Assembly (NCBI RefSeq): GCF_003544935.1 | Contig: NZ_CP032098.1 | Coordinates: forward strand, 1,302,001-1,366,000 | Length of the DNA: 64,000 nt | Origin: Malaciobacter molluscorum LMG 25693 | Lineage (GTDB): Bacteria; Campylobacterota; Campylobacteria; Campylobacterales; Arcobacteraceae | Direction: 5' to 3' | Shown here: piece after piece, positions 4,119 through 60,722 of the stretch | Position numbering within the stretch: position 1 is the first letter of the stretch | How the letters are laid out: every line of letters begins with the position of its first letter | Notes under the pieces: generated by a model | What the model was told of the DNA's origin: nothing | The model's database searches: none | Seen by the model: the letters and a program-made list of their open reading frames with translations, nothing else | Program-made: the position numbers and the translations under genes

Positions 4119-4946
4119 CTACCAGTTATTATTTATTAGGTTTTGTTCTTTCATTGTTTGAGTTAATAATTCATAACCTTTTAATTCTTTATGTGTTGTT
4201 TTAACCCATTTATTTAAACCTTCCATTTGCATCATTTTTTTGATGATCGGTTCATTTGGATCTTGAGCAAGCATCATTTCTGTAAAAACTTTTTGAATAT
4301 TATTATCTAGACTATCTAAAACAGTAAAATTACAATGACAATAGCCTTCACTTGTATAAAAAGATTCTATTTCATCACTTGGAAACATTCCTTGTTCAAT
4401 CATTCTAACCCAGGTGCTAATTCCTATTGCTCCTGCATCTACTTTATCATTTAAAATTGCTTCTAATATATCAAATTCACTTTTTCCTGTATCACCATGT
4501 TTTCCTAAGTCTGAATTAAATCTTACAATTTTTACATCATTAATATTCTCTAATTCTTTTTCTAAAAATTTGTATGGAAGTATTGCTGCTTGTGCAGAAT
4601 CAGCACTTCCTAATGCAAATTTTTTTCCTTTTAAATCTTTAATTGATTTTATATTACTATTTGATTTTGTAATAAATACTGATTTAAAATCAATATCTGT
4701 ATCTCTCATAAGTAAAGCTTTTACTTTACCATTGCTTTGTTCATGACATCTTACCCAAGCTACATTTGTATTCCAAGCTATATCAATTTTCCCTGATAAT
4801 AAATACTCAACTTGAGCTTCATAATTAGAAAACATAACATAGTCAAGTCTAACACCTCTATCGTTAAAATAGTCTCTTATAATATCCCAAATTGGTAATA
4901 CTTTTGGATCATAAGCAACTGCTCCTAGCATAATTGTTTTTTGCAT
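4119..4946 (-). CDS. PhnD-like substrate-binding-fold protein without signal peptide
   Basis: This 275-residue protein has the type 2 periplasmic-binding fold seen in PhnD/SsuA/transferrin-like proteins: VEYLLSGKIDIAWNTNVAWV (about 47-66), the hinge segment SIKDLKGKKFALGSADSAQA (about 102-121) and the later VDAGAIGIS. It starts directly with the first strand (MQKTIMLGAVAYDP) and has no signal peptide or lipobox. The start is firm because AAGGAG lies 8 bases upstream. It is therefore probably cytoplasmic, unlike true ABC-transporter binding proteins. It is the last gene of a three-gene operon, 11 bases after the acyl-CoA-dehydrogenase-like gene, and no permease or ATPase is nearby. A ligand-sensing or substrate-presenting role is possible. 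Confidence 0.75.
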   Translation of the reverse strand: MQKTIMLGAVAYDPKVLPIWDIIRDYFNDRGVRLDYVMFSNYEAQVEYLLSGKIDIAWNTNVAWVRCHEQSNGKVKALLMRDTDIDFKSVFITKSNSNIKSIKDLKGKKFALGSADSAQAAILPYKFLEKELENINDVKIVRFNSDLGKHGDTGKSEFDILEAILNDKVDAGAIGISTWVRMIEQGMFPSDEIESFYTSEGYCHCNFTVLDSLDNNIQKVFTEMMLAQDPNEPIIKKMMQMEGLNKWVKTTHKELKGYELLTQTMKEQNLINNNW

Positions 4947-4957
4947 CTATTTTCTCC

Positions 4958-6085
4958 TTATGGAATAGGTTGATCAGTTAAAGCTTTTCCTAACCAAGTT
5001 GAAAGTACATCTGTACTTGGTGCCATGACTTGAGCTGCAAATGCATCTCTTAAAAGTCTTTCAATTTTTATTCTTTTTGCATAGGCAGTTCCACCACCTA
5101 TTTTCATAGCTAAAGTACATACATCAACTGCAACTTCTGATGCGTTTAATCTTGCAGAAATTATTTGAGCTAATGCATCTTCTTGTCCTGTTGCTCCACT
5201 TTTTGCTGCTGCTAAAGTGAAATGTTTAGCACTTGTAGCTTTAGTATATATTTTAGAAATATGATTTTGTACAGTTGGTATATTACTAAGAGTTGTATTA
5301 TCTGGATATTTTCTATTTTTTGCATAATCAATTATTGTATTGCATGCATTAAGTGCTACACCACTATAAACAGCACTTAATCCCAGAATAAAAAATGGTC
5401 CAACAGTATTAAATATTTGTTCTTCTGCACTACCAGCTTCACCTAATCTATATTCACTACCAATTTGAACATTCTCAAGAAGCATAGGCATTGAAGCATT
5501 TCCTCTCATTCCTAAACCATCCCAATTTGATTCTTGATAACTTACTCCCATTAAATCTTTATGTACTAGCCAATTATCTAGTCCTTCAGTATCAATACTA
5601 TTTGCATCAATAAGACAATAATCTGCATATAAAGCAGAAGTAACAAAACTTTTTCTACCATTTAAAATATATTTATTATCTTTTTTAGTTACTTTTAATT
5701 CTGGTTGATAAAAATGTGTTCCTGAACCACTTTCACTATATGCTAATGCAAGAAGTATTTCTCCATTTGCAATTTTTGGAAGAAATTTTTGTTTTAGTTC
5801 TTCACTTCCATGTGTTACAATGCAATTTGTTGCAACATTATGCATCATATAACAAAGTGCAGTTGTTGCACAAGTAGAAGCAAAAGCTAATACAGTTTGA
5901 GCATGTTCTTCCAATGATAAACCCATTCCTCCATACTCTTTTGGTACTAAAAGAGCAGTTATTCTCTCTTTTTTTAAAGCATCAAAACTTTCTTTTGGAA
6001 AAGTTGCATTTTTATCTACATCTGTAGTATAAGGTTCAATATGTTTTTTTGCAAATTCCAGCATTTTATTATAAATATTATCCAT
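4958..6085 (-). CDS. Acyl-CoA dehydrogenase-fold flavoprotein with non-canonical catalytic base
   Basis: The 375-residue protein has the normal family length and domain order. The FAD-binding segment LALAYSESGSGTHF (about 112-125), the middle beta domain (NGRKSFVTSALYADY) and the C-terminal helices (CTLAMKIGGGTAYAKRIKIERLLRDAFAAQV) are all visible. The Y-E-G-T motif that carries the catalytic Glu in most family members is replaced by MAPST, with Ala355 where Glu should be. Glu222 (EQIFNTVGP) sits where isovaleryl-CoA dehydrogenase keeps its base, so dehydrogenation is not excluded. A flavin monooxygenase role, as in DszC or amine N-hydroxylases of this fold, is another option. It lies between the diiron protein (12-base gap) and the PhnD-like gene (11-base gap). 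Confidence 0.8.
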   Translation of the reverse strand: MDNIYNKMLEFAKKHIEPYTTDVDKNATFPKESFDALKKERITALLVPKEYGGMGLSLEEHAQTVLAFASTCATTALCYMMHNVATNCIVTHGSEELKQKFLPKIANGEILLALAYSESGSGTHFYQPELKVTKKDNKYILNGRKSFVTSALYADYCLIDANSIDTEGLDNWLVHKDLMGVSYQESNWDGLGMRGNASMPMLLENVQIGSEYRLGEAGSAEEQIFNTVGPFFILGLSAVYSGVALNACNTIIDYAKNRKYPDNTTLSNIPTVQNHISKIYTKATSAKHFTLAAAKSGATGQEDALAQIISARLNASEVAVDVCTLAMKIGGGTAYAKRIKIERLLRDAFAAQVMAPSTDVLSTWLGKALTDQPIP

Positions 6086-6097
6086 TTAAATTTTTTC

Positions 6098-7348
6098 CTA
6101 CATAAAATTTGGTGTATGTGCTTTGGAGATATCATTTGCTAAATCTTCATCCATACCTATATCAATAAGTCTTTTAATTCTATTTTTATTCATTGTCTTT
6201 TTTAGTTCTTCTACTAGTTCAAAACCTCTTTTGTAGTCATCTGGTTCATCACTTCCTCCTGCCAAGATAGCAAGTGATTCTAAAAGCATTGTTGATTCTG
6301 TATTTAATTCATCCATAAACTCTTTTCTTTTAAATGCCGTGTTTTTTAAAGAGTTTATTCTATATGGATTTTGTTCAATAGCAGATCTTACATGTTCCAT
6401 ACCATATGCTACATGTCTCATCTCATCTCTTTTTGCTAATTTTATAAGTTTTTTTGTTGCCTCATCAGGCATATACTTTTCTAAAAAACTTAATAAGTCA
6501 ACAAATGTTCCTTCACCCATAACATGAAGTAAAAAAGAACTTTTTATATAATCCTCTTCTTTAAAAAGAGAGTATAATGAGCGTTGAGTTACTTCACTAG
6601 AGTATTGAAATCCACCTCCATTTGCATTTGCTCTTTTTGTAAAAACTTCTATATGTCTTGCTTCATCATTCATTAAAGATGATAAAAAAAGTGGAACTTC
6701 CATGTAATATGGATTGATTTTACTAATAAATTTACCAGGAATGTATAACGCAGAAAATTCATTTTCTACTAGATATGTCATGATTTGGCATATTGCTTTT
6801 TCTAATATTGGATTAAGATTTGGAATCTCATTCCATGCAATATCTGTTGTTGCGTTCCATTGTAAATTTTTACCTTCTTCATAAAGTATAGAAACAGGAT
6901 CTGACCATATAAGTTCTTTGTGGGAAAGTTCAAAATTATAATGAGGTGAACCTTCTTGTGTAACTATTCCTCTAGTTAAAAGACCATTATCTATGGGGGC
7001 TTTATCTAATATTTCTTCACTCAAATTTAAATCTTTCAATTTTGGATTTGATGTTTCAATACCTTTCATCTTTTTATTCCAAGATGCTGATGATGAAAAA
7101 CTATTTTTTGTGATTTTTTGTATTTTGTAAGAGTATTGTTGTTTTAAAACTTCTCTTCCTAAATATAAATGTCCTTTTATTTTTGCCCAACCTCTAAGTT
7201 CTGTTTCAATGTTTGGATTTAAAGAAATGATTTCGATGATTTCATAAGTATTTGAAACTAAAAATACATTTTCTAGTTTTAAAAATAGTGCTTGGGAAGG
7301 CTTTAAATGACCTGTAAAAATAGATATACAATGATTTTGATTATTCAA
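6098..7348 (-). CDS. TusA-like domain fused to a ferritin-like diiron domain
   Basis: Two parts are visible. The N-terminal ~80 residues resemble the TusA sulfurtransferase fold (IIEIISLNPNIETELRGWAKIKGHLYL), but the Cys-Pro-x-Pro signature is absent. The C-terminal ~250 residues have the ligand pattern of a carboxylate-bridged diiron four-helix bundle: a Glu in YLVENEFSALY, E-x-x-H in MNDEARHIEVF, a Glu in HVMGEGTFVDLL and a second E-x-x-H in RDEMRHVAYGMEH. I place the start at TTG 7348, with GGAG 6 bases upstream, rather than the ATG at 7381, which lacks a ribosome-binding site. It is first in an operon with the acyl-CoA-dehydrogenase-like and PhnD-like genes. An oxygenase or oxidase is likely, substrate unknown. 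Confidence 0.65.
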   Translation of the reverse strand: MNNQNHCISIFTGHLKPSQALFLKLENVFLVSNTYEIIEIISLNPNIETELRGWAKIKGHLYLGREVLKQQYSYKIQKITKNSFSSSASWNKKMKGIETSNPKLKDLNLSEEILDKAPIDNGLLTRGIVTQEGSPHYNFELSHKELIWSDPVSILYEEGKNLQWNATTDIAWNEIPNLNPILEKAICQIMTYLVENEFSALYIPGKFISKINPYYMEVPLFLSSLMNDEARHIEVFTKRANANGGGFQYSSEVTQRSLYSLFKEEDYIKSSFLLHVMGEGTFVDLLSFLEKYMPDEATKKLIKLAKRDEMRHVAYGMEHVRSAIEQNPYRINSLKNTAFKRKEFMDELNTESTMLLESLAILAGGSDEPDDYKRGFELVEELKKTMNKNRIKRLIDIGMDEDLANDISKAHTPNFM

Positions 7349-7404
7349 ACGTATCTCCAAAACTAAAATAATTTTGGCCATCTAATAAATTAATAACTTA
7401 ATGA

Positions 7405-7463: not shown

Positions 7464-9296
7464 TTATTTTATAGGAATACTTAATATAAATTTTGCACCT
7501 TTTAATTTAAGCTTATTATAAGAGTATTCTATATTTTTAGCTGTTAATGTTCCATTCATATGTTTTGTAATCATCTCTTTAGACATGTATAATCCAATTC
7601 CTGTACCATTTTTATTACTCTTTGTTGTAAAATATGGATTGAAAATTTTATTAATAATATTTTCTGGTATTCCATCTGCATTATCTGTAATTTCTAAAGT
7701 TATTTCATTTGTTTCTTTATTGACCTTTGAATCAAAGAAAATATATTTGTTTTGTTTATTCTTCTCCTCTAGTGCATCAATGCAGTTATTTATAATATTT
7801 ATTATAACTTGGATAAATTCATTTTTTAGACCAAATATTTTAATTTTTTGTAGATTCTTTATAATAGATATATCTCTATTTTTAATTTTTGATTGAGTTA
7901 AAAACAGAACCTTTTCTATACACTCTTCAATATCAAAATAAGTTAATTTTTTATCAGGTTTAAAATAATTTCTAAAATCTTCAATTGTTTGATTTAAATG
8001 ATTTACAGAATTAGTTATTCTATTAATTGCTTCATCTAAAAACTCATCATCTAATATTTCAAACTCTTTTTTTACTTTTATTCCTGTTGCACTTGATGAA
8101 ATAACAGAAAGAGGTTGTCTCCATTGATGCGCAATATTTTCAAGCATTTCTCCCATTGCAGCCATTTTTGATTGTTGTTCTATCATTTTATTTTTACTAT
8201 CTAGTTCTTCGTTCATCTTTTTTATATCAGTTATATCCATAAAAATACCAAGAATTCCAATAATTTCACCTTTTGTATTTGTTAAAGGAACTTTTGAAGT
8301 TATTATATCTAATCGATTTTTATTTTTTGTAAGAAGAGATTCTTCTGTTTTTAAAACATGTTTTCCCGTTTCTATTACACTTTTATCATCTTTTCTATAT
8401 TTAATAATATCTTTTGTATTCCAAGGAAGTTTAAAATCTGTTTTTCCTATTATTTGTTCTTGTACTTGATAACCTGCTAGATTTAAAAAATATTTATTTG
8501 CTCCCAAATATTTAAAATCAGTATTTTTCCAGAAAATTGCAATTGGTATTGAGTCAATTATGTTATTTAAAAGGAGTTTAGCCTCTTGTAATTCTTCTAT
8601 TTTTTTAGAAAGGTTTGATTGAGATTTTATAAGTTTTTTCTCAATCTTAGTTATTTTTTTGTTTATTATTAATATGGTTAAAATAACAATTATTAGTATA
8701 ATAGTGCTAGAAAATATTGAATAAATTTTCATATTTTCTATTTGTTTATTTATAGTTTTTTTATCAATTATATCCATTTTTTTAAACTCTTGGAAAATAA
8801 AATCTTGATATTGTAAAAGAAATTCAATTTTTCTTGATAAAGATAAAATAGTTTTATAAAGTTCACTATTTTTATCTTTTATAAATAATTCCCCTTGAAG
8901 TGATAAAATAGATTTTTTATGTAAGTTTTGTGGTTGTAGTATATTATTTTCTAAAATCTTATCGATTTTAGAAATCTCTTTTTTTGATATATACCATAAT
9001 TTGCCAATTCTATTTTTTTGTTCTAATGTTAATGTATTTATTTGTTTATCAAATTCTTCAATAGATTTTATCCATATAATTTTTTTATCTTCTAAATTTA
9101 AAGTTGATAGAAGATTTTCAGTATTCATTTTAAGCTCTAAAAAACTATTTTTTGAATTTGATAGGCATGTCAATTTTTTATTTAATAAATCTATTTTTTG
9201 TAAAAAGAAAAAAACTATGACGGTACTTAATAAAAGGCCAATTATTAGAATAACAAAGCTATAAAAAGTAAAATCTCTAATTTTTAAGTTACTCAT
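7464..9296 (-). CDS. Membrane-bound PAS-domain sensor histidine kinase
   Basis: The 610-residue kinase has a first membrane helix (about 12-32), an extracytoplasmic helical domain (about 35-190), a second membrane helix (about 193-212), a PAS domain (about 242-355, ending in GILGIFMDITDIKKM), a HisKA segment with H390 in NIAHQWRQPLS, and a HATPase domain with an N box (NIINNCIDAL) and G boxes (DNADGIPENI, NGTGIGLYMSK). Its start overlaps the end of the solute-binding lipoprotein gene by 8 bases, so the two are almost certainly co-translated. The lipoprotein probably delivers a ligand to the kinase's outer domain. No response regulator gene is adjacent. Confidence 0.85.
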   Translation of the reverse strand: MSNLKIRDFTFYSFVILIIGLLLSTVIVFFFLQKIDLLNKKLTCLSNSKNSFLELKMNTENLLSTLNLEDKKIIWIKSIEEFDKQINTLTLEQKNRIGKLWYISKKEISKIDKILENNILQPQNLHKKSILSLQGELFIKDKNSELYKTILSLSRKIEFLLQYQDFIFQEFKKMDIIDKKTINKQIENMKIYSIFSSTIILIIVILTILIINKKITKIEKKLIKSQSNLSKKIEELQEAKLLLNNIIDSIPIAIFWKNTDFKYLGANKYFLNLAGYQVQEQIIGKTDFKLPWNTKDIIKYRKDDKSVIETGKHVLKTEESLLTKNKNRLDIITSKVPLTNTKGEIIGILGIFMDITDIKKMNEELDSKNKMIEQQSKMAAMGEMLENIAHQWRQPLSVISSSATGIKVKKEFEILDDEFLDEAINRITNSVNHLNQTIEDFRNYFKPDKKLTYFDIEECIEKVLFLTQSKIKNRDISIIKNLQKIKIFGLKNEFIQVIINIINNCIDALEEKNKQNKYIFFDSKVNKETNEITLEITDNADGIPENIINKIFNPYFTTKSNKNGTGIGLYMSKEMITKHMNGTLTAKNIEYSYNKLKLKGAKFILSIPIK

Positions 9297-10752
9297 TTAT
9301 TGATTCCTTATATAACTTTATTTGTTTTTCTCTTCCTAACTTATTTGTTATTTGTTCCCATTGTTTATAAACTATATCTAATGCTTGTTGTGCTGAAAGT
9401 TCTTTAATTATAGCTTTATGTAAATATATATTTAATGCATCATAATAAAGTTCTGCTCCTGGTATTCGAATATCTGTAATTATATTTTTGTTTGATAAAG
9501 ATTTTTCAATTGTTTTTAGATACTTAATTGCTTCGTCTTTAGAAAAACCACTTTTATTCCACTCTTCATAAGAAGTAGGGTAAAAATGAGAAACTCTTGA
9601 TGGATTTACTCCACTCCATCCTTTTGAAATAAGTTTTTGAGTTAACTCTTTTGAAGACATATGTGTTGCAAAGTCTAATGCAAGTTTTTTATTTTTACTA
9701 TTTTTATTTACTACAATAATCCAATTGCCAGTTAATGCAGTAACTTTATTAAATCTTTTTTCCCATTTTTGTTTTTTTGAATTATATACACTATTACTTC
9801 CTGGTAAAACAGCATAACCAATTTTGTTTTTTATAACTGATTCTTTTGCATTATTTGCCATTATTCCAATATCTCCCCAATCAATTGCTAATGCAACATC
9901 ACCAGCAATAAAACTCTGTCTTACTTCAAATGGAGAATAGTTTATTATTTCTTTTGGAGCATATTGCATTATATTTACATATTCTTTTAATGCTTTTACA
10001 AATGCAGGGTTATTTATTCTTGGTTTCATTGTATTTATATCAAAATAAAAAGCATTATCTTCAGGATATTTGGCATATGCTGCTGCTCTAGCAAAAAATA
10101 AAAGCATTGTCCCATAATTAGAAATTCTACTTCCTATTAAACCATGTTCAATCTTACCATCATTATCCCAATCCCATCCATTAAAAAATTGTGCTATATT
10201 TGTATATTCTTGCCATGTATTAGGTACTTTTAAATCATAATGATAAATTTGTTTAAATTTTTTTTGGTATTCTTTATTCTCTAAAATATCTTTTCTATAA
10301 TAGATAATTACATTATCACCATCATAAGGTAAAAAATAGCATTTATTATTCCACGAGTAAATATATTTTTTATAAATGGGTAAAACATCATCCCAATGTA
10401 TCTTATCTTTTGCCCATTTAGGAATTTCAAGGGCACTATTATTTGATAGGATTGAACCAGCCCAAGAGGAGAATAAAAAGAAAACATCATAATTTATATT
10501 TGGATCTGTTAAAGACTCTTTTATTTCAGATACAGTGTCATCCCAACTTGGAGTAACAACTCTAATTATAACATCTTTATTTTTTTGTATTTTTTTTGCT
10601 TCAATTTTTACAGGATCGCTAATTAATCCACCTAAGTGGGGCACAAGAACAGTAATAATTTGTTCTTTTGTTTTATCTGTTGAGTTTTCATTATTACATG
10701 AATTAAAAAAAATTGTTATAAATATTAAAAAAAATATTTTAATTACTCTCAT
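9289..10752 (-). CDS. Family 1 extracellular solute-binding lipoprotein (sensor partner)
   Basis: The protein is a MalE-like binding protein of about 487 residues: signal peptide MRVIKIFFLIFITIFF and lipobox FFNSC giving an acylated Cys, then a two-lobed body with segments typical of sugar-type binding proteins (YDVFFLFSSWAGSIL, WDWDNDGKIEHGLIGS, SFIAGDVALAIDWGDIGIMA). The start is set at 10752 because GGAG sits 8 bases upstream. An in-frame ATG at 10776 has no such signal. No permease or ATPase gene follows. Instead a histidine kinase overlaps it, so it probably senses rather than transports. Ligand unknown. Confidence 0.8.
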   Translation of the reverse strand: MRVIKIFFLIFITIFFNSCNNENSTDKTKEQIITVLVPHLGGLISDPVKIEAKKIQKNKDVIIRVVTPSWDDTVSEIKESLTDPNINYDVFFLFSSWAGSILSNNSALEIPKWAKDKIHWDDVLPIYKKYIYSWNNKCYFLPYDGDNVIIYYRKDILENKEYQKKFKQIYHYDLKVPNTWQEYTNIAQFFNGWDWDNDGKIEHGLIGSRISNYGTMLLFFARAAAYAKYPEDNAFYFDINTMKPRINNPAFVKALKEYVNIMQYAPKEIINYSPFEVRQSFIAGDVALAIDWGDIGIMANNAKESVIKNKIGYAVLPGSNSVYNSKKQKWEKRFNKVTALTGNWIIVVNKNSKNKKLALDFATHMSSKELTQKLISKGWSGVNPSRVSHFYPTSYEEWNKSGFSKDEAIKYLKTIEKSLSNKNIITDIRIPGAELYYDALNIYLHKAIIKELSAQQALDIVYKQWEQITNKLGREKQIKLYKESINE

Positions 10753-10839
10753 AATGACATCTCCTGTTATCATCAAAGGTAATAAATCATACTCTTAAAA
10801 CACTTAAAAAACTAAAAAAATTATTTATACTATGATTTT

Positions 10840-29897: not shown

Positions 29898-30746
29898 TTA
29901 TTTTTTTATTTCTAATTTACATCCAAGATTTGCCATTCCACATGAGTACATGCTACTTGATACAATACCATCTATTTCTAATTTTGCATAATCTTTTACA
30001 TTTGATAAGTTTATTCCTCCACAAAGTAATATCTTAATATTTTTATTTATTTTATTTTTATATTCTATTATTTTTTTAGTCGTATCTAAATCTATCTTGT
30101 CTAATTGTAATACATCAATACAATTTTCTATTAATTTTTTACTATCTTCATATGTTTTTGATTCAACAACAATCTTTTTTTCTGGAAGTCTATTTTTTAG
30201 TTTATTTATCTCTTTATAAAAAGTTTCATTATTATCATAAATAATTCTATGGTAATCAAAAAATAAAATAGATTCACTTAGTCCTAACCTATGAGGTAAT
30301 GCACCTCCACAGAGTATAGCTTTAATACACATTCTTTTACTAAAAGGAATAGTTTTTCTTGTAGTTAATAGTTCACATGAACTATTATACTGTTTTATTA
30401 TTTTTAACATACTTTTTGTTTGTGTAGCTATTTTACAACTATATTCTAGTAAAACTTGAGAAAGTTTTAATACTTGCTGAATCTTTTCATAACTTCCTTT
30501 TATTTTTAGAATTACTTCACCTTTTTTAAGTTCTGTTTTTGAAGGTTTAAATTTTTTTATTTTACATCCTAAAATTTTTGCAATACTAGCAGCCTCTTCA
30601 CTACATGCAACTATTATATCTTCTCTTGTGTATATTTCTAAAGTAGCTTTTATGTTTTTTTCTTCTTGAACATGCGTAGTTAAATCTAAATAGGGTAAGT
30701 CCTCATTTATATATCTACATAGTTCTTCTTCTGTTAGATTAAACAT
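29898..30746 (-). CDS. modD: ModD, nicotinate phosphoribosyltransferase-like molybdate-operon protein
   Basis: The 282-residue protein resembles quinolinate phosphoribosyltransferase: DLPYLDLTTHVQ, LLEYSCKIATQTKSML, LLTTRKTIPFSKRMCIKAILCGGALPHRLGLSE and the C-terminal ILLCGGINLSNV. The TTRKTIPFSK with CGGALPHRLGLSE pattern is the ModD form. ModD's chemistry is unproven. It is the last gene of the molybdate operon, 10 bases after the second permease gene. Confidence 0.88.
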   Translation of the reverse strand: MFNLTEEELCRYINEDLPYLDLTTHVQEEKNIKATLEIYTREDIIVACSEEAASIAKILGCKIKKFKPSKTELKKGEVILKIKGSYEKIQQVLKLSQVLLEYSCKIATQTKSMLKIIKQYNSSCELLTTRKTIPFSKRMCIKAILCGGALPHRLGLSESILFFDYHRIIYDNNETFYKEINKLKNRLPEKKIVVESKTYEDSKKLIENCIDVLQLDKIDLDTTKKIIEYKNKINKNIKILLCGGINLSNVKDYAKLEIDGIVSSSMYSCGMANLGCKLEIKK

Positions 30747-30756
30747 CTTTTTCCTT

Positions 30757-31428
30757 TTAAATATGTTTTTGGTTTGTTTGTAAAAAGTTTAATATTATAA
30801 AAAATATTAAAGATATAACTATTAATATTCCACTTAAAATAAGTGCTAAATTATAATCTCCATCAAATACTGCATTATATATTGCAAGTGAAATAGTATC
30901 AGTTTTACCTATAATATTTCCTCCTATCATAAGTGTTATTCCTACTTCTCCAAGTGCTCTTGCACAAGATATTAATAAACATGCAAGTAAACTTTTTTTT
31001 ATAGAAGGAAGAATTATAAATAAAAGAGTGATTAGCTTACTTTTACCACTTAAGTATGAAGCTTCTATTATATTTTTAGGAAATTGTTCAATAGCTGACT
31101 GTAAAGGTTTTACCATTAATGGAAGACCTGCTATAAATCCAGCTATTACTAAACTTGGAAAGCAAAATATAAAAGTTATATCAAATTTATAAAAAAAACT
31201 ACCAATTATCCCATCTCTTCCTAATAATAAAAGTAAAAAAAAACCTATTGCAATAGGAGGAAAAATTAAAGGTAGTGTTACTATTGTATTAATAAGCCAT
31301 TTAAATCTAAATTTTTCTTTAGAAAGTAAAAAAGCTAAAAACACACCTATTGTAAGAAATAGTAATAGATTAATCCCTACAGTTTTAATACTTAAAAATA
31401 AAGGATTAAAAATCATAGAATAATCCAT
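30757..31428 (-). CDS. Second molybdate/tungstate-type ABC permease (ModB-like)
   Basis: The 223-residue membrane protein has about five to six hydrophobic helices and the BPD_transp_1 cytoplasmic loop EASYLSGKSKLITLLFIILPSIKKSLLACLL, close to ModB. It is shorter and more divergent than the permease at 32981. It follows the second binding-protein gene by 3 bases, so the two may form a second transporter with the single ModC. Confidence 0.82.
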   Translation of the reverse strand: MDYSMIFNPLFLSIKTVGINLLLFLTIGVFLAFLLSKEKFRFKWLINTIVTLPLIFPPIAIGFFLLLLLGRDGIIGSFFYKFDITFIFCFPSLVIAGFIAGLPLMVKPLQSAIEQFPKNIIEASYLSGKSKLITLLFIILPSIKKSLLACLLISCARALGEVGITLMIGGNIIGKTDTISLAIYNAVFDGDYNLALILSGILIVISLIFFIILNFLQTNQKHI

Positions 31429-31431
31429 TTT

Positions 31432-32124
31432 TTATAGTCCAAATTTAGTAAAAATATCTTTTGCTTTTTTTGTTTGTATAAATTTTAAAAAATCTTTACA
31501 CTCTTTTTTACAATTGCCTGTAGAAGCTGCAACTATATCAATTTTTGAATAAAGTTTATTATCAATCTTAATATATCCACCAAGTTTATTTTTATTTGCT
31601 AAGGCAGAAGTTAAATTTATAATTCCAACATCAATTTCATTTGTAATTAAATAAGTTGTAACTTGAGGAACAGTTGCAGTAATAAAAAGTTTTTCTTTTA
31701 TATCTAAAAAAATCTTAGAATTTTTAAGTATTTGCATAGCAGCAATTCCATAAATAGCTTTTTTAGGATGAGGGATTGATACTCTTTTAATTTTATCTAA
31801 TAATATTTCATTTAAATTATTTATTTTTATTTTTTTAGAGTATGCAAGTACAGCTTTGCCTTCTCCTATTGTAGTATATTTTATAAAATCAATATTGCTT
31901 TTATTTTGTAAAAAGTTTTTATCTCCTATTATTAAAGCTAAATTTGTATGTTTTGCTTGCGCACTTACTTGTCTCATATTTCCATAAAAAGCATCAATAT
32001 TTTTATTGTAAAGTTTTAAAATTTCTTGAATGGGTTTTTTATAGCCTGCTCCTGCTGCAATTTTAAAATCACTAGCATTTATTATTACTATAGGCAAGAA
32101 CAGAATTAATAATAACTTTTTCAT
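31432..32124 (-). CDS. Second ModA-like binding protein
   Basis: The 230-residue protein has a signal peptide (MKKLLLILFLPIVIINA) and a short ModA-type body: FKIAAGAGYKKPIQEILKLY, PHPKKAIYGIAAMQIL, and TATVPQVTTYLITNEIDVGIIN. Residues corresponding to the oxyanion pocket differ from the first ModA (34059), which suggests a different anion or affinity. It sits between ModC (8-base gap) and the second permease. Confidence 0.8.
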   Translation of the reverse strand: MKKLLLILFLPIVIINASDFKIAAGAGYKKPIQEILKLYNKNIDAFYGNMRQVSAQAKHTNLALIIGDKNFLQNKSNIDFIKYTTIGEGKAVLAYSKKIKINNLNEILLDKIKRVSIPHPKKAIYGIAAMQILKNSKIFLDIKEKLFITATVPQVTTYLITNEIDVGIINLTSALANKNKLGGYIKIDNKLYSKIDIVAASTGNCKKECKDFLKFIQTKKAKDIFTKFGL

Positions 32125-32132
32125 AATAATTC

Positions 32133-32984
32133 CTAATATGATATATTTGGAGAGAAGGCTTTTGTACTTACTCTAACTTTTGAACCAATTTTAAGATTTA
32201 AAGTTTCATCTTCACTTAATACTACTTCTACTAATTGTTGACCAATAGATATAATAGCTATATATATTACATCAACTTTTACTATGTCTAGAAGTTCACC
32301 TTCAAATGAGAATTTAGCACTTCCTGATGTTTTTAATAAAACATCTTTTGCTTTTCCCTCTTTTTTTACAACACCATTTTGCATTACAATTACTTTATTA
32401 CTAAGTCTATAAATTTCACTTGGATCATGACTTACCATAATTGTAGTTGTTTTAAATTTTTTATGAAGTGTTAATATTTCATCTTGAAGTTTTGTTCTAA
32501 TTGTAGGATCTAAAGCGGATAATGGTTCATCCATTAACAATAATTTTGGTTTATTCATCAATGCTCGACATAAACTTACTCTTTGTTTTTGACCACCACT
32601 TAAAGTTGTAACATTTCTATCTTTTAATTTTGAAAGTTCTGTTATTTCTAATAGTTCTAAAGCAAGTTTTTTATCTTTATTTACAAAGAGTAAATTTTCA
32701 ATAACACTCATATTTGAGAAAAGTGCATAATCTTGAAAAACAAAACCAATTTGTCTTTTTTGTACAGGAAGAAAATGTTTATCATCTTGCCATACTTTTC
32801 CAGCTACATTTATATAACTATTTGATTCTTCAAGACCAGCAAGTATTCGAAGTAGGGTAGTTTTACCACTTCCACTAAGACCTGTTAATGCTACAAAATC
32901 ACCTTCATTGATTTGTAAATTTACATCAAGATTCATTTTTCCAATCGAACCTATTAGTTCTTTTTCAACATCTATTTTTATCAT
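32133..32984 (-). CDS. modC: ModC, molybdate ABC transporter ATP-binding protein
   Basis: The 283-residue protein has the Walker A GLSGSGKTTLL (about 35-45), Q-loop GFVFQDYALF, signature LSGGQKQRVSL, Walker B LLLMDEPLSALD and H-loop MVSHD. A single TOBE-like region follows (about 220-280). It overlaps the ModB gene by 4 bases. It is the only ATPase for two permeases and two binding proteins. Confidence 0.92.
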   Translation of the reverse strand: MIKIDVEKELIGSIGKMNLDVNLQINEGDFVALTGLSGSGKTTLLRILAGLEESNSYINVAGKVWQDDKHFLPVQKRQIGFVFQDYALFSNMSVIENLLFVNKDKKLALELLEITELSKLKDRNVTTLSGGQKQRVSLCRALMNKPKLLLMDEPLSALDPTIRTKLQDEILTLHKKFKTTTIMVSHDPSEIYRLSNKVIVMQNGVVKKEGKAKDVLLKTSGSAKFSFEGELLDIVKVDVIYIAIISIGQQLVEVVLSEDETLNLKIGSKVRVSTKAFSPNISY

Positions 32985-33670
32985 AGAAAACTCTTTTTTT
33001 GTTTTTGGTTAAAAATATATACACTAAGAAGTACAAGGAAACTAATAATAAGCATTAATGCACTATAAATATGAGCACTTTTATAATCCATAATTTCTAC
33101 AAATTCATATATTGCAACTGATGCAACTTTTGTTTGGCCAGGAATACTTCCTCCTACCATTAATACAACACCAAATTCTCCTACAGTATGTGCAAAAGTT
33201 ACTATTAATGCAGTTAATAATGATGGTTTAATATTTGGAATTGCAATTTTTAAAACGGTTTGTATTTTACTTTTTCCACTAATTAAACTAGCTTCAATCA
33301 TATTTTTATTTAAACTTTCAAATCCACTTTGTAAAGGCTGAACCATAAAAGGTAAGCTATAAATACAACTTGCAATAACTAACCCATAAAAATTAAAAAC
33401 TAATTGAATATTAAAATAGTCTTCAAAAAACTGTCCTAAAAATGAATTTTGAGATAAACTATATAATATATAAAATCCTAAAACAGAAGGCGGTAAAACT
33501 AGTGGAAGTGCAGTAATTGCTTCTAATATTGGTTTTACTCTTGATTTAGTTTGTGATAAATACCAACTTAAGGGCATTGAGATAATAAAAAGTATAATTG
33601 TAGTAATCAAAGCTAATTTAAATGATAATAAAAAAGGTCTAAATTCTATATTTGATAATATTTCAATCAT
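32981..33670 (-). CDS. modB: ModB, molybdate ABC permease
   Basis: The 229-residue permease has about five to six hydrophobic helices, the ModB-type ITALPLVLPPSVLGFYILYSL and the EAA-like loop EASLISGKSKIQTVLKIAIPNI. It overlaps ModC and the Mop-like gene by 4 bases each, marking one translationally coupled block. Confidence 0.9.
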   Translation of the reverse strand: MIEILSNIEFRPFLLSFKLALITTIILFIISMPLSWYLSQTKSRVKPILEAITALPLVLPPSVLGFYILYSLSQNSFLGQFFEDYFNIQLVFNFYGLVIASCIYSLPFMVQPLQSGFESLNKNMIEASLISGKSKIQTVLKIAIPNIKPSLLTALIVTFAHTVGEFGVVLMVGGSIPGQTKVASVAIYEFVEIMDYKSAHIYSALMLIISFLVLLSVYIFNQKQKKSFL

Positions 33671-34062
33671 ACAATTACCTCTTTAATTGAAAGTTCACTT
33701 GATTTAAAAACAGCATTTACATTATCATTTAATGCAAGATTCATTCTTTTGGCTGATTTTGATGTGATAATACTAGTAAACGTACTATTTTTATGTTTTA
33801 GTTTTATACTTGTAAGAAGTTTTCCTATCTCCAATTGTATAATTTTACATGCAATAGAGTTTGCAAGACTTATTTGGCCTTGAAACTCTTTTGCTATTGC
33901 AATATTAGAAGCTTTTATTGTCAATATAACATCTGTATTAACTTTAATATTATATAAATCTAAACTCATCATAGATAATGTAACATCGTAAAATTTAAAT
34001 TCTACAATATTTAAATTATCTATAGTATCAATTTTAGATACAGTAGCTTCTAAATTATTCAT
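33667..34062 (-). CDS. Mop/TOBE-domain molybdate-binding protein
   Basis: The 131-residue protein is made of two Mop/TOBE-like repeats; the second is clear in LANSIACKIIQLEIGKLLTSIKLKHKNSTFTSIITSKSA. No signal peptide, so it is a cytoplasmic molybdate store or buffer. It lies between ModA and ModB and overlaps both neighbours by 4 bases, unlike the common stand-alone Mop gene. Confidence 0.82.
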   Translation of the reverse strand: MNNLEATVSKIDTIDNLNIVEFKFYDVTLSMMSLDLYNIKVNTDVILTIKASNIAIAKEFQGQISLANSIACKIIQLEIGKLLTSIKLKHKNSTFTSIITSKSAKRMNLALNDNVNAVFKSSELSIKEVIV

Positions 34063-34808
34063 GGTACTAAATATCCAAAATCTTTAAATACCTTTTCAGC
34101 TTTTTTACTTAATATAAAGCTATAAAAAGCACTTGCTTCTTTATTATTCTCGGCTCTTTTTAGTAAAACAATCCCTTGATTTATTGGAGTATAAAGTTTA
34201 CTATCAACTGTGTACCAATTTACTCCTTCTTTGTATTCTTTCATTTTTTCTGAATATAAAGATGATTTTGCTATAAATCCTACATCAGCAGCTGTTAATG
34301 CATATGTAACAGCTTGTGATATAGATTCTGCATAGATAAGTTTATTCTCTACATCTTTATAAACTTTTGCATTTTTCATTGCTTGTACACTTGCTGTTCC
34401 ATATGGTGCAGTTTTTGGATTTGCTATTGCAATTTTTTTAAAACTTGGATTTGTAATAAGTTTTATACCTTTTTTAAAATCTTGTTTTTTAGCGCTTAAA
34501 TATGCTAATGAACCTTGTGCATAAACAAGAGGTCTTGTTACTGCAAAGTCTTCTTTGTATAAAGCTTCAGGAAACTTCATATTAGCAGCCATAAAAATAT
34601 CATATGGCGCACCATTTCTAATTTGTGCTGTAATTTTTCCACTACTTGTTAGTGTTACATTTACTTTTGTATCTGGATAGATTTTATTAAACTCTTTTTT
34701 TAAATCATTAATTGCATATGATACATTTGCAGCTGCTGCTATATTTATAGTACCAGCTAAAAGACTACTTACACAAAGAATGCTTCCTATAATAATTTTT
34801 CTTAACAT
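34059..34808 (-). CDS. modA: ModA, molybdate-binding protein
   Basis: The 249-residue protein has a signal peptide (MLRKIIIGSILCVSSLLA) and the ModA body: NIAAAANVSYAINDLKKEF, LTSSGKITAQIRNGAPYDIFMAAN, IANPKTAPYGTASVQAM, and AESISQAVTYALTAADVGFIA. It follows modE by 9 bases. Confidence 0.93.
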   Translation of the reverse strand: MLRKIIIGSILCVSSLLAGTINIAAAANVSYAINDLKKEFNKIYPDTKVNVTLTSSGKITAQIRNGAPYDIFMAANMKFPEALYKEDFAVTRPLVYAQGSLAYLSAKKQDFKKGIKLITNPSFKKIAIANPKTAPYGTASVQAMKNAKVYKDVENKLIYAESISQAVTYALTAADVGFIAKSSLYSEKMKEYKEGVNWYTVDSKLYTPINQGIVLLKRAENNKEASAFYSFILSKKAEKVFKDFGYLVP

Positions 34809-34817
34809 TTAAACTCC

Positions 34818-35600
34818 TTATTTTCCAATCATAATATCTGATGATTTTATCACAGCAAAAATATTTTGCCCAACTTGTAAATCTAACTGTTCTGCAGCTT
34901 CTTTTGTAATTACTGATGTAATTGTTTCGTGAGTTGATATTTCAATTAAAACTTCACAACTAACTTCACTAAAGTTTAATTTTTGAATTACCCCTTCTAG
35001 TTTATTTCTAGCACTTAAGCCTAGAAGTTCTGAAGTAGCTATCATTACATTATTAGATTTAAAAATAGCGATAATCTCATCTTCAATTTTCAAACCTAAA
35101 GTCTTTACACTATTTTTTGAAATATTAGAAACCATTTTTTGTTTACTTTTTGTTTCTAAAATAATGCTTGCATTAACTTTATCTTCAACGATATTTACAA
35201 TTTTTACTGCCAATTGATTTCTTGCACTAATTTGCATTGAGAACCTTTTTAAAGATTTTAAACTTCCTGTATTAAAATCTGTAAGATTTGTAAGTCTTTC
35301 TAGAAATTTTTTGTGTTCACTTTGTAGTATAGAATACGTTTTTATAAGGTTTTTTCCATATTCAGTAAGTATTGCTCCACCACCACCTTTTCCTCCAGTT
35401 TCTTTTTTTACAACGATATTTGGACAAAGGTTATTGATACTATCTACTGCCTCCCATGCCGTTTTATAGCTCATTGGCACAATTTTTGCTGCTTTACTAA
35501 TAGAACCTTCTTTTTGTATTGCTTGTAAAAGTTTGATTCTTTTTTCCAATAAAAAAGGAATATCAGAATTTAAAAGTGTTAGTGTTGATTCAAACTGCAT
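34818..35600 (-). CDS. modE: ModE, molybdate-responsive regulator
   Basis: The 260-residue regulator has the ModE N-terminal winged helix (GSISKAAKIVPMSYKTAWEAVDSIN and GGKGGGGAILTEYGKNL) and two C-terminal Mop/TOBE repeats (about 125-260; SARNQLAVKI and SARNKLEGVI begin each). With molybdate bound it is expected to repress this operon. It is the first gene of eight and probably acts at the palindrome-rich upstream region. Confidence 0.93.
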   Translation of the reverse strand: MQFESTLTLLNSDIPFLLEKRIKLLQAIQKEGSISKAAKIVPMSYKTAWEAVDSINNLCPNIVVKKETGGKGGGGAILTEYGKNLIKTYSILQSEHKKFLERLTNLTDFNTGSLKSLKRFSMQISARNQLAVKIVNIVEDKVNASIILETKSKQKMVSNISKNSVKTLGLKIEDEIIAIFKSNNVMIATSELLGLSARNKLEGVIQKLNFSEVSCEVLIEISTHETITSVITKEAAEQLDLQVGQNIFAVIKSSDIMIGK

Positions 35601-57031: not shown

Positions 57032-57868
57032 TTAATTAACTACTTGATATAATTTTGAACACTGTCCTAAATATAAGTCTTTACCACTTATATCATTTAT
57101 TATATCTTGGTAACTATAAATATGTGCATTATACACATATATAAAAATTTCATCACCTTTTTTAAGATAATTATGTTTTCCAAATTCAGAATATGCTGTT
57201 GCACCTGCAGCAATAATTATTCCTTTTGCCTTTTTAGCATCTTTTAAAAATGGAGTTAGTTCTTCTAATGGACCACAATCTTCTTGTGTATTAAATTTAT
57301 TTACCATCCAATCTTTTAATTGATTGAAAAAATAACTATATGATTTAACTGCTGAAACTGTTCCATAATCATGTAAAATTCCATCTCTTCTTAAAAATGA
57401 GGCAATATGAAATCTATTTAAAATTGATTCTTTTTCATCAAAACTATCAATTCTTATAAAATCTTGTGAAATTCCTTTTGTTTTTTCACCCCAGTTCTTT
57501 TTAGAACTTAGTTTTTTACTATCATTAGTTCTAATTGAACAATCATTAAATGCTGCAAATCTTTTAGGAATAATGTCGACTATTTTTTCATTTTCATATT
57601 CAAAATCACAAATTAGTGCTACTTCTGCTTCTACTTGTAGGTTTTCATTTTCTCTACCATGTGTTAGAATTTCTTCATCACAAATAGGATATGTTCCTAA
57701 AAAACTATCATGATCTTTTATATAAAAAGGAAATAATCCTTTTGGAGCATTTTTATCTTCTGTTTGTATTACAGAAAATTCATCGGCTTCTCCTGCCTCA
57801 CCTAGGTGATTTGCAAAGTTTCCTGCAACTGCAAATCCTAAATAATCTCTAAAATCCTCTTTTAACAT
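57032..57868 (-). CDS. DUF5718 family protein
   Basis: The ~278-residue protein begins MLKEDFRDYLGFAVAGNFANHLGEAGE and carries the family blocks LFPFYIKDHDSFLGTYP, VEAEVALICDFEY and CSIRTNDSKKLSSKKNWG. The fold resembles fumarylacetoacetate hydrolase-like proteins, but function is unknown. The start is 57868 (TTAGGA upstream) rather than 57898. Confidence 0.8.
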   Translation of the reverse strand: MLKEDFRDYLGFAVAGNFANHLGEAGEADEFSVIQTEDKNAPKGLFPFYIKDHDSFLGTYPICDEEILTHGRENENLQVEAEVALICDFEYENEKIVDIIPKRFAAFNDCSIRTNDSKKLSSKKNWGEKTKGISQDFIRIDSFDEKESILNRFHIASFLRRDGILHDYGTVSAVKSYSYFFNQLKDWMVNKFNTQEDCGPLEELTPFLKDAKKAKGIIIAAGATAYSEFGKHNYLKKGDEIFIYVYNAHIYSYQDIINDISGKDLYLGQCSKLYQVVN

Positions 57869-57900
57869 TTGTATTCCTAATATAAATTTTAAAAACATAT

Positions 57901-57906
57901 ATTATA
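57901..57906 (-). promoter_or_regulatory. -10 element of the DUF5718 gene
   Basis: TATAAT on the minus strand (in GCATATAATATATG), about 35 bases upstream of the chosen start. Confidence 0.4.
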
Positions 57907-57982
57907 TGCTTTTCTTCTAATATCTAAGCAGTAATAAAAAATTAGTTAAATTATTTAAAAAAAGTAGGGTAAAAAGTAAGTG

Positions 57983-58008
57983 ATCACAAGGCTAAAAGCC
58001 TTTGTGAT
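57983..58008 (-). terminator. Terminator of the class I fumarase gene
   Basis: ATCACAAGGCT (57983-57993) pairs with AGCCTTTGTGAT (57997-58008), one base bulged, just past the stop codon at 58013. The minus strand then reads CACTTACTTTTTACCC. Confidence 0.65.
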
Positions 58009-58012
58009 TAAT

Positions 58013-59503
58013 TTATATAGTTCTCCATTTTGCTGGCCCAGTAGTATGAATAGACGTACCTTCAGTATCAACAGCAACAGTAACAGGCATATCTTTTACT
58101 TCAAACTCATAAATAGCTTCCATACCCATCTCTTCAAATGCTAATACTTTAGCATCTTTGATTGATTGTGATATTAAATATGCTGCGCCTCCTGTTGCTA
58201 TTAAATACATTGATTTATACTCTTTTATTAAATCAATTGTTGGTTGTTTTCTCTCTGCTTTTCCAATCATCCCCATGATTCCTATTTCCATCATGTCTTT
58301 CGTGAATTTATCCATTCTTGTTGATGTTGTTGGTCCTGCTGGTCCTACTTTCTCATCTCTTACTGGATCTACTGGTCCTACATAGTAAATAAATCTATCT
58401 TTTAATTCTACTCCATTTGGTAGTGGTTTCCCTGCTTCTTTATATTCTACTATCTTTTTATGTGCTGCATCTCTTGCTGTTAAGATTTTCCCTGACAATA
58501 GTAATGTATCCCCTGATTTAAATTGTGACAAGTTCTCTTTTGTTAAATCTTTTATATTTACTCTTTTTACACTATCCATTGGTATCTCTAAATCTGGCCA
58601 TATATCCAAATCTGGTTTCTCAAATTTTGCTGCTCCATTCCCATCTAATTCAAACTCTATATGTCTTGTTGCTGCACAGTTTGGTATCATTGCTACTGGT
58701 TTTGATGCTGCATGACATGGGTAATCTAAGATTTTTACATCTAATACTGTTGTTACTCCTCCTAGTCCTTGTGCTCCTAATCCTAGTTTATTGATATCTT
58801 CATATAGTTTTAATCTTAATTCTTCTACTGCGTTTTTTGCACCTCTTGCTTTTAATTCATGTATATCTACATGATCCATCAAAGACTCTTTTGCTAGAAG
58901 CATCGCTTTCTCTGGATTTCCACCAATTCCTATTCCTAGAATCCCTGGAGGACACCATCCTGCTCCCATATGTTTTACATTCTCCATCACCCAATCATAG
59001 ATACTATCACTTGGATTTAGAACTGTGAATTTTGATTTATTCTCACTTCCTCCTCCTTTTGCTGCTACTGTTATATTTATTTTATCTGAGTTATCTACAC
59101 TATAATGGATTACTGCTGGTGTATTATTTTTTGTATTTTTTCTTTCACCTGCTGGATCGCTCACTACTGAATATCTTAGTGTATTATCTGGATCTGTATA
59201 TCCTTTTGCTACACCTTCATTTAATACTTCTTCTAATTCTTTACTCAATTCTAGTTTTGCGTTTAATCCCACTTTTATAAATATATTTACTGATCCTGTA
59301 TCTTGGCATAATGGTCTGTGCCCCATCGCACACATCTTTGAATTTATTAATATTTGTGCTATCGCATTTTTCGCTGATTGCGATTCCTCTTTTTCATATG
59401 CTTCTACCATCGCTTTTACAAAATCTTCTGGATGATAATATGATATATATTGACAGGCCCCTGCTATACTATCTATTATATCTTGCTCTTTTATTACTTT
59501 CAT
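58013..59503 (-). CDS. Class I (iron-sulfur) fumarase, possibly also a mesaconase
   Basis: This 496-residue single-chain class I enzyme has cluster-binding segments with Cys in RPLCQDTGSVNIF (about 64-76), MGAGWCPPGILGIGIGGNP (about 181-199) and MIPNCAATRHIEF (about 278-290), plus the C-terminal VGPVDPVRDEKVGPAGPTTSTRM. Some class I fumarases also hydrate mesaconate. The nearby mesaconyl-CoA hydratase gives that option some context. Activity on either substrate is inference. Confidence 0.9.
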   Translation of the reverse strand: MKVIKEQDIIDSIAGACQYISYYHPEDFVKAMVEAYEKEESQSAKNAIAQILINSKMCAMGHRPLCQDTGSVNIFIKVGLNAKLELSKELEEVLNEGVAKGYTDPDNTLRYSVVSDPAGERKNTKNNTPAVIHYSVDNSDKINITVAAKGGGSENKSKFTVLNPSDSIYDWVMENVKHMGAGWCPPGILGIGIGGNPEKAMLLAKESLMDHVDIHELKARGAKNAVEELRLKLYEDINKLGLGAQGLGGVTTVLDVKILDYPCHAASKPVAMIPNCAATRHIEFELDGNGAAKFEKPDLDIWPDLEIPMDSVKRVNIKDLTKENLSQFKSGDTLLLSGKILTARDAAHKKIVEYKEAGKPLPNGVELKDRFIYYVGPVDPVRDEKVGPAGPTTSTRMDKFTKDMMEIGIMGMIGKAERKQPTIDLIKEYKSMYLIATGGAAYLISQSIKDAKVLAFEEMGMEAIYEFEVKDMPVTVAVDTEGTSIHTTGPAKWRTI

Positions 59504-59538
59504 TTACATTATTTCCTTTCACTTGCGAAGTGACTGAT

Positions 59539-59544
59539 ATTATA
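59539..59544 (-). promoter_or_regulatory. -10 element of the class I fumarase gene
   Basis: TATAAT on the minus strand (in TGTATAATATC), about 36 bases upstream of the ATG. A small CACTT/AAGTG hairpin lies in the leader. The fumarase may thus be transcribed separately from the lyase. Confidence 0.4.
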
Positions 59545-59553
59545 CATATTTGT

Positions 59554-60537
59554 TTATGAAAAAAATCTTTTTGTCACTTCTTCTTGAAGTTTTTGTCCTG
59601 AAAAGTGACCTCTTTGTACAAGTTCCCAAAAATATCTATATGTTGCTCTATCATGAAGTTCTCCATCATATTGAATTGGACCCCATTCTGCATCTTGGGC
59701 TTTAAGTAAAATATTTTGAGCTGCTTCAAGTTCTGTAAAATCTGGTTTCATAGCATCAACAATTGCTTGAATTTGTGTTGGATAAATTGACCACATTCTC
59801 ATAAATCCAAATTCATTTCTAGCAATTTCTGCATCTTTAAATGTTTGGTATGGATTTTTTAAATCTAATGTTACATTATGACAAGGTATAACATGATTTT
59901 GAATAGCTGCTTGACAAACTCTAGTTTTAGCAGCAGCAATTAATCTATGAGTAAATTGTCCAGGACTTCTCATATTACTTGCAGGAATTGCACCTTGGTA
60001 TCCTGATACAAAATCCATTAATCCAAAATCAAGAACTTGAAGCCACGGTAATGTTGCAATTTTTTCTACATCCTGTAATGCACCATGAGTTTCAATTAAA
60101 ATATGAATAGGTATCTCTTTTGTAATACCTGCTTCTTTTGCTACTTTTTGAATATACTCAACTTGTGTTTTAACATCATCATAAGATGTTGATTTTGGAA
60201 GAGTAATATAAGCTAATTTTTCACCAGCTCCTGGTACTAAAATATCAATATCTTGTCTCCAATCAGGGTGTGAAAAGTCGTGAATTCTTGTTCCTGCCAT
60301 TGAATATGGGTTTGCATCAGAATTAACAACTCTTACAATCATATTTGCATGTTCTACTTCTTTTCCTGTTTCAGCTCCATCTTCACAATCACAAGTAATA
60401 TCAAAAACTGGACCTAATTTTTTTTGCATTTCAAATGCTTTTAAAATTAATTTTTCACTACCTGCAAAGTGTTCACAAGAAGGGATAATTGGTAAACTTT
60501 TTCCTGATTCGAATAATGCTTTGTTTGGATGTGTCAT
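59554..60537 (-). CDS. CitE/HpcH-family CoA-ester lyase (probable malyl-/methylmalyl-CoA lyase)
   Basis: This 327-residue TIM-barrel protein has the CitE-superfamily metal and substrate residues in place: DITCDCEDGAETG (about 46-58), IHILIETHGAL with the Glu ligand, and LDFGLMDFVSGYQG with the Asp ligand. It is close to the betaproteobacterial aldolase/citrate lyase proteins. Next to the mesaconyl-CoA hydratase it could split beta-methylmalyl-CoA into glyoxylate and propionyl-CoA. Malyl- or citramalyl-CoA are alternatives. The gap from the hydratase gene is 185 bases and contains hairpins. Confidence 0.8.
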   Translation of the reverse strand: MTHPNKALFESGKSLPIIPSCEHFAGSEKLILKAFEMQKKLGPVFDITCDCEDGAETGKEVEHANMIVRVVNSDANPYSMAGTRIHDFSHPDWRQDIDILVPGAGEKLAYITLPKSTSYDDVKTQVEYIQKVAKEAGITKEIPIHILIETHGALQDVEKIATLPWLQVLDFGLMDFVSGYQGAIPASNMRSPGQFTHRLIAAAKTRVCQAAIQNHVIPCHNVTLDLKNPYQTFKDAEIARNEFGFMRMWSIYPTQIQAIVDAMKPDFTELEAAQNILLKAQDAEWGPIQYDGELHDRATYRYFWELVQRGHFSGQKLQEEVTKRFFS

Positions 60538-60559
60538 AATAAATTCCTTTTTTTAATTT

Positions 60560-60706
60560 GGTTCCCAATTAAAAAATGGGACCTTTTTATTTTTTGTCTT
60601 CTTTTTTGTCTTCACTTCGTTCGCCACAAGACTACGCTATGAAGAGCACGGGAAGTAAATTCCCGTTAAAAGAAGAAAAACTCTAAAGGAGACAACGAGT
60701 TGTCTC
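60560..60706. other. Hairpin-rich intergenic element
   Basis: Three stem-loops lie in 147 bases: GGTTCCCA/TGGGACC (60560-60583, one bulge), ACGGGAA/TTCCCGT (60648-60666) and GAGACAAC/GTTGTCTC (60689-60706). The part between 60607 and 60646 is GC-richer than surrounding DNA. It sits between the hydratase stop and the lyase ribosome-binding site, so it could terminate, stabilise or regulate the transcript. Confidence 0.6.
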
Positions 60707-60722
60707 AACAATTCTTATTAAC

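Follow-up and report, generated by a model that had tools for sequence, protein, structure and literature searches.

Structure of the locus

The window analysed here is a stretch of 64,000 nucleotides from the genome of Malaciobacter molluscorum LMG 25693 (contig NZ_CP032098.1, positions 1,302,001 to 1,366,000). It contains a cassette of three genes, all on the minus strand, that encode a diiron protein, a flavoprotein of the acyl-CoA dehydrogenase fold (ACAD) and a binding-fold protein (SBP). The features of the cassette, numbered by position in the window, are as follows.

6098..7348, minus strand: diiron gene (TusA-like N-terminal part and ferritin-like diiron domain); the reading frame is open to an ATG at 7381
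7097..7333, minus strand: TusA-fold domain, residues 17-95 of the 427-aa reading frame, from a Foldseek match to 3lvj_C
6101..6934, minus strand: ferritin-like diiron oxygenase domain with E208, E240, H243, E290, E320 and H323
4958..6085, minus strand: flavoprotein gene, acyl-CoA dehydrogenase fold, Rv1679/FadE16-like, from domain and family matches and an alignment to 5ol2
4119..4946, minus strand: binding-fold gene, cytoplasmic PhnD/selenate-type fold, Rv1680-like, from family scores and the start of the sequence
4332..4337, minus strand: invariant His204-Cys205 of the binding-fold protein, from alignments

The gaps are 12 bases between the diiron and flavoprotein genes and 11 bases between the flavoprotein and binding protein genes. 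A three-gene operon with gaps of 11-12 bases, as described in the original prediction, is thus confirmed at 7381/7348-6098, 6085-4958 and 4946-4119. The diiron start that had been placed at 7348 is well chosen: the TTG at this position is the likely start and is favoured over the ATG at 7381, since GGAG (7358-7355) lies 6 bases ahead of it and the first 15 residues of the 427-aa frame have very low confidence in the AlphaFold2 model. A consensus scan for own promoters of the cassette yielded sites no more numerous than in shuffled sequences.

Directly upstream, a PAS histidine kinase gene overlaps the end of a gene for a sugar-type periplasmic binding protein (7464-10776, minus strand); this pair was not seen beside the cassette in more distant relatives. 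Elsewhere on the minus strand of the window, two sets of ABC transporter genes of the molybdate type, accompanied by genes for a ModE-like regulator and a ModD-like protein, were recognised by eye (29898-35600). A run of fumarylacetoacetase-like, class I fumarase-like, CitE/malyl-CoA-lyase-like, MaoC-like and fused AMP-ligase and CitE-like ORFs (57032-63945, minus strand), read in the same way, looks like a C5-dicarboxylate (mesaconate-type) pathway.

Domain composition of the encoded proteins

The diiron protein was modelled by AlphaFold2 from 50 diverse sequences (pLDDT 90.2, pTM 0.84); this model supersedes an earlier one from 12 close sequences (pLDDT 68.6). Among solved structures, its fold is closest to those of azoxy synthase VlmB (Z 22.7), R2lox (Z 21.9) and ADO (Z 21.2). 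The helix bundle contains two EX(~30)EXXH ligand sets, as expected of a diiron-carboxylate protein, and all six ligands (E208, E240 and H243 with E290, E320 and H323) are invariant in 50 sequences that have 31-85% identity to the window protein. The diiron oxygenase-type domain proposed for this gene is therefore well founded on both fold and ligands. The protein is not a member of the R2-like ligand-binding oxidase family NF006200, which it matches at 34.6 bits against a cut-off of 194.

The TusA-like N-terminal part of the same proposal is weak in the window protein, where the Pfam TusA score is 12.7 bits, and gains support from homologues L057 and L127, which pass the Pfam cut-off, and from the modelled fold, in which Foldseek matches E. 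coli TusA (3lvj_C) with a TM of 0.77 on the target. The active Cys-Pro of TusA is missing: no Cys occurs at the motif columns of the 50-sequence alignment. Homologue L127 has LDCGSG near the motif position.

The flavoprotein matches the N-terminal, middle and C-terminal domains of acyl-CoA dehydrogenases, in agreement with its initial reading as acyl-CoA-dehydrogenase-like. In the alignment to 5ol2, the stretch with the catalytic Glu, IYEGTSEV, reads VMAPSTDV in the window protein, and YEGT is MAPS or a close variant (MAP motif) in every flavoprotein homologue aligned. The same alignments contain no Glu at the IVD-type alternative position. Because YEGT is replaced and the alternative Glu is absent, the flavoprotein is probably not a classical acyl-CoA dehydrogenase. 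It is a clear relative of the Rv1679 family NF049984, below its cut-off (267.8 bits against 600), and the DszC family is also among its family matches.

The third protein matches Phosphonate-bd at 2.4e-31. Its sequence begins with the first strand of the fold, without any apparent signal peptide, as had been noted when it was called PhnD-like and not exported. Its best curated family is NF049985 (Rv1680 of Mycobacterium tuberculosis), of which it is a clear relative below the cut-off (326 bits against 400); the next is TIGR04553, a putative selenate SBP, with 100 bits. It does not qualify as a PhnD-type ABC transporter SBP, having no apparent export signal and no transporter genes that recur beside the trio. 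Residues common to all types of the binding protein include R81, D82, D84, D152, E157, H204 and C205, and the His-Cys pair is absent from the aligned PhnD-type structure 7s6g. A match to NMT1 (2.7e-11) and the presence of a CHCNF motif raised the possibility of a thiamin (THI5/NMT1-like) role. It was set aside rather than refuted, as only His-Cys and Phe of this motif are invariant (compare CCCFC in THI5) and no other feature ties the cassette to thiamin.

Conservation and distribution of the cassette

A search of a collection of 84,980 species with the diiron alignment returned 90 relatives, of which 80 were kept. They were found in Campylobacterota, Brachyspira, Bacillota, Actinomycetota, Armatimonadota, Chloroflexi, Gemmatimonadota, Methylomirabilota and other groups; within the family of the window, the gene is present in 21 of 104 genomes. 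The trio is tightly adjacent in 66 of the 80 diiron loci, across many phyla and in three gene orders: the order of the window (55 loci), ACAD-SBP-diiron (10) and ACAD-diiron-SBP (1). All 66 loci with the three genes on one strand show tight adjacency. The neighbourhood is conserved well beyond chance, so that the conserved co-occurrence on which the original prediction depended is present. The flanking genes vary between lineages, and hence the trio is the unit. Protein distances among its members correlate (r 0.85-0.94, to which shared species history contributes), a pattern that fits joint inheritance.

The carriers listed are mostly oxygen-exposed bacteria. The classical strictly anaerobic, selenoprotein-rich groups are absent among them, except for Brachyspira and one "Clostridia" MAG contig (L100). 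The latter is probably misbinned, since it shares neighbours with two Helicobacter loci (L101 and L106). Cargo of phages or plasmids was rejected as an explanation, there being no diiron relatives in the viral contigs or plasmids searched. Damaged copies include a diiron gene with an internal stop (L070, genome G034), frameshifted diiron and ACAD genes (L194, G495) and a MetE-type cassette broken into several pieces (L066, G346).

Variant cassettes

The diiron protein also occurs in some genomes that lack the flavoprotein and the binding protein. In Gemmatimonadota, Methylomirabilota and some soil MAGs, the diiron protein has no TusA part and is encoded beside a cupin or an OsmC-like protein, the latter related to a selenoprotein family; the binding protein of the trio is mostly missing from these genomes. 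Nine such TusA-less relatives (L130, L132-L136, L138, L139 and L142) are each followed by a cupin gene, and their genomes are SelD-positive. We regard this as a second, simpler selenium-linked arrangement.

In other variants the diiron gene is replaced. Some Campylobacterota have an ACAD-SBP-MetE-OsmC cassette, with MetE-core and OsmC proteins in its place. The MetE-core partner is reminiscent of the MesD/MesX theme (PMC7857596); a role in methionine synthesis was rejected, as this partner is confined to the diiron-less Campylobacterota type. A radical SAM partner is found at an actinobacterial plasmid locus and in the M. tuberculosis-type families. The ACAD and SBP half is found on plasmids of Mycolicibacterium, Rhodococcus and Miltoncostaea (L052, L053 and L054), in the vicinity of genes for radical SAM, DoxX, deiodinase-like or carboxymuconolactone-decarboxylase proteins, and on the Miltoncostaea plasmid selB-selA-selD lie a few kb upstream.

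Physical linkage to selenium genes

In Streptomyces hyderabadensis (L149) and Amycolatopsis acidicola (L174), the trio forms part of a single run SelD-ACAD-SBP-diiron-SelA-SelB. Amycolatopsis has two copies of the trio, each with its own SelD; at the second (L150/L173), SelD-SelA is divergent from the trio and SelB is near. SelD is directly upstream of the trio in Sulfuricurvum and just beyond it at locus L179. Linkage to sel genes was thus observed in Streptomyces, Amycolatopsis, genome G673 and Sulfuricurvum. By chance, 0.18 SelD neighbours within 5 kb are expected over about 90 loci, and the probability of at least four independent ones is about 4e-5. In addition, four actinobacterial loci have UGSC genes near the trio, namely those of Actinophytocola (L144), Blastococcus (L146), Amycolatopsis (L150) and Mycolicibacterium (L152). 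In these genes a TGA occurs in frame at the UGSC motif, as in selenoprotein genes. The genome of the window itself has an intact SelD-SelA-SelB about 350 kb from the trio and hence no such linkage.

These locations bear on the possibility that the trio protects the cell, by destroying toxic selenium species or by shielding selenium enzymes from oxygen. The O2-type diiron site, the prevalence of oxygen-exposed selenium users among the carriers and the OsmC-like and cupin partners of the diiron protein in other lineages would agree with it. However, the trio is found in selenocysteine biosynthesis operons and not in resistance operons, and its binding-fold protein suits capture better than disposal, so that we consider a protective role quite unlikely.

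Co-occurrence with selenium utilization

SelD is strongly matched in all 39 Campylobacterota that have the binding protein of the cassette (34 of the diiron type and five of the MetE type), compared with 223 of 298 genomes (75%) above the cut-off in the phylum as a whole (hypergeometric P 4.8e-6). In the Pseudonocardiaceae-type family (of genome G405), SelD is present in 15/15 diiron carriers against 173 of 249 genomes (69%; P 0.0035), and in the family of G388 in 3/3 carriers against 71 of 104 (P 0.31). All these P values are optimistic, as the genomes are related and independence is overstated. Among carriers from other phyla, 34 of 36 have SelD; the two misses are a draft genome with no clear match and a MAG with a partial match. 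Genomes of the same genus can have SelD without the trio, and therefore the trio is not essential for selenium use.

The original prediction suggested oxidation of a sulfur- or nitrogen-containing compound, and a selenium-independent oxidation of a sulfur, nitrogen or phosphonate compound could account for several features of the cassette. In one desulfurization pathway, DszC and DszB are an oxidising flavoprotein of the ACAD fold and a binding-fold enzyme, and the ACAD-fold and binding-fold proteins of the trio recall this pair. The replacement of the diiron protein by MetE-core and OsmC proteins in some Campylobacterota and the radical SAM partner in Mycobacterium-type loci point in the same direction. 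Such a reaction gives no reason for the presence of SelD in virtually all carriers, the location in Sec operons or the UGSC genes nearby, and we consider it the least probable of the explanations weighed here. Oxidation by a diiron/flavin pair is still plausible, but given the co-occurrence with SelD, the location in Sec operons and the neighbouring selenoprotein genes, a selenium compound is the more likely substrate.

The known users of selenophosphate accompany the trio almost without exception. Among the 80 carriers, SelA is above the cut-off in 74, with one more having SelA in two pieces, and SelU is above it in 29; four Bacillota carriers that lack SelA have SelD and SelU. Altogether 79 carriers have SelA or SelU, and the exception is a MAG of 1.9 Mb. 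This pattern helps to distinguish supply of selenium to SelD from consumption of its product. As a consumer, the trio would turn selenophosphate into a selenium metabolite or cofactor, as in the selenoneine and ovoselenol pathways; SelD is indeed directly next to the trio or part of one run with it in Streptomyces, Amycolatopsis (at both copies), Sulfuricurvum and G673, and a PhnD-type fold could bind selenophosphate. A new consumer, however, is expected to be sometimes the sole user of SelD, whereas a supplier should occur with either user, as is observed: no intact carrier was seen that has SelD but lacks both SelA and SelU. Nor is the trio repeatedly accompanied by genes for tailoring, export or resistance. 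The pattern of users favours, without proving, the supply direction, and a consumer seems unlikely, if somewhat less so than a protective role.

Possible role in selenium supply

A link of the trio to selenium is very likely. That it is an accessory selenium-supply module acting upstream of SelD is, in our estimate, an evenly balanced proposition, suggested by guilt by association. Its recurrence in genomes of many phyla, nearly all of them selenium users, and its occasional place inside a selenocysteine gene cluster, indicate that the cassette is probably an undescribed oxygen-dependent route to usable selenium.

We propose that the diiron oxygenase, with its degenerate TusA domain, and the ACAD-fold flavoprotein would make an oxidative attack on a selenium compound, for which an organic or methylated selenide or seleninate is the likeliest candidate. 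With its invariant His204/Cys205, the cytoplasmic binding-fold protein would hold an oxyanion-like intermediate or take the released selenium, and the product would pass to SelD and further to the selenocysteine or 2-selenouridine systems. Oxidative release and capture are suggested by the O2-type diiron site, a flavoprotein without the dehydrogenase base and a cytoplasmic oxyanion-type binding fold; we infer the selenium compounds as substrates, the flow towards SelD and the bond that is broken. The exact reaction, in which O2 would be used to free selenium for SelD from an organic or oxidised source, is doubtful in this form. Only slightly less tentative is the speculation that the cassette could be dedicated to O2-dependent selenium acquisition by C-Se cleavage and cytoplasmic capture, that it could be the missing in vivo donor route to SelD in oxygen-exposed bacteria, and that the radical SAM and MetE-core versions could be alternatives to the diiron step.

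Literature searches on Rv1679/Rv1680, on selD with acyl-CoA dehydrogenase and on diiron proteins with selenophosphate turned up no account of the cassette, which agrees with the initial remark that no named pathway has this set of genes. The in vivo selenium donor of SelD is incompletely understood (PMC13188914), and according to a 2022 review a high-affinity selenium transport system has not been identified (PMC9312934). With a widespread cassette that follows SelD and occurs within Sec operons, the question of how selenium is supplied can be put to a direct test in ordinary laboratory bacteria.

Comparison with known systems

R2lox, VlmB and the aldehyde-deformylating oxygenases share with the cassette protein the diiron helix bundle and the ligand pattern of four Glu and two His; in contrast, identity in structure alignments is only 11-19%, and the cassette protein has the extra TusA domain. 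The YedF protein also contains a TusA domain. It is selenium-linked (PMC9312934), so that a TusA-type domain likewise occurs in a selenium-linked protein, although the cassette version lacks Cys-Pro. The likeness to the DszC and DszB pair is at the level of fold, and no DszA-like partner is found beside the trio. In each of the three types tested, the family that the third protein matches best other than Rv1680 is TIGR04553, a putative selenate ABC transporter SBP; unlike it, the third protein has no apparent signal peptide and no neighbouring permease or ATPase genes, and has the invariant His-Cys.

Another close parallel is M. tuberculosis Rv1679 (FadE16)-Rv1680-Rv1681 (MoeX), represented by NF049984, NF049985 and NF049973. 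It contains the same pair of flavoprotein and binding-fold protein in the same order, with radical SAM and DoxX-like proteins where the cassette has the diiron protein, and the curated cut-offs are not reached by the window proteins. If the proposed role in selenium supply is true, it would give the first functional handle on the uncharacterised Rv1679-Rv1680 families of M. tuberculosis.
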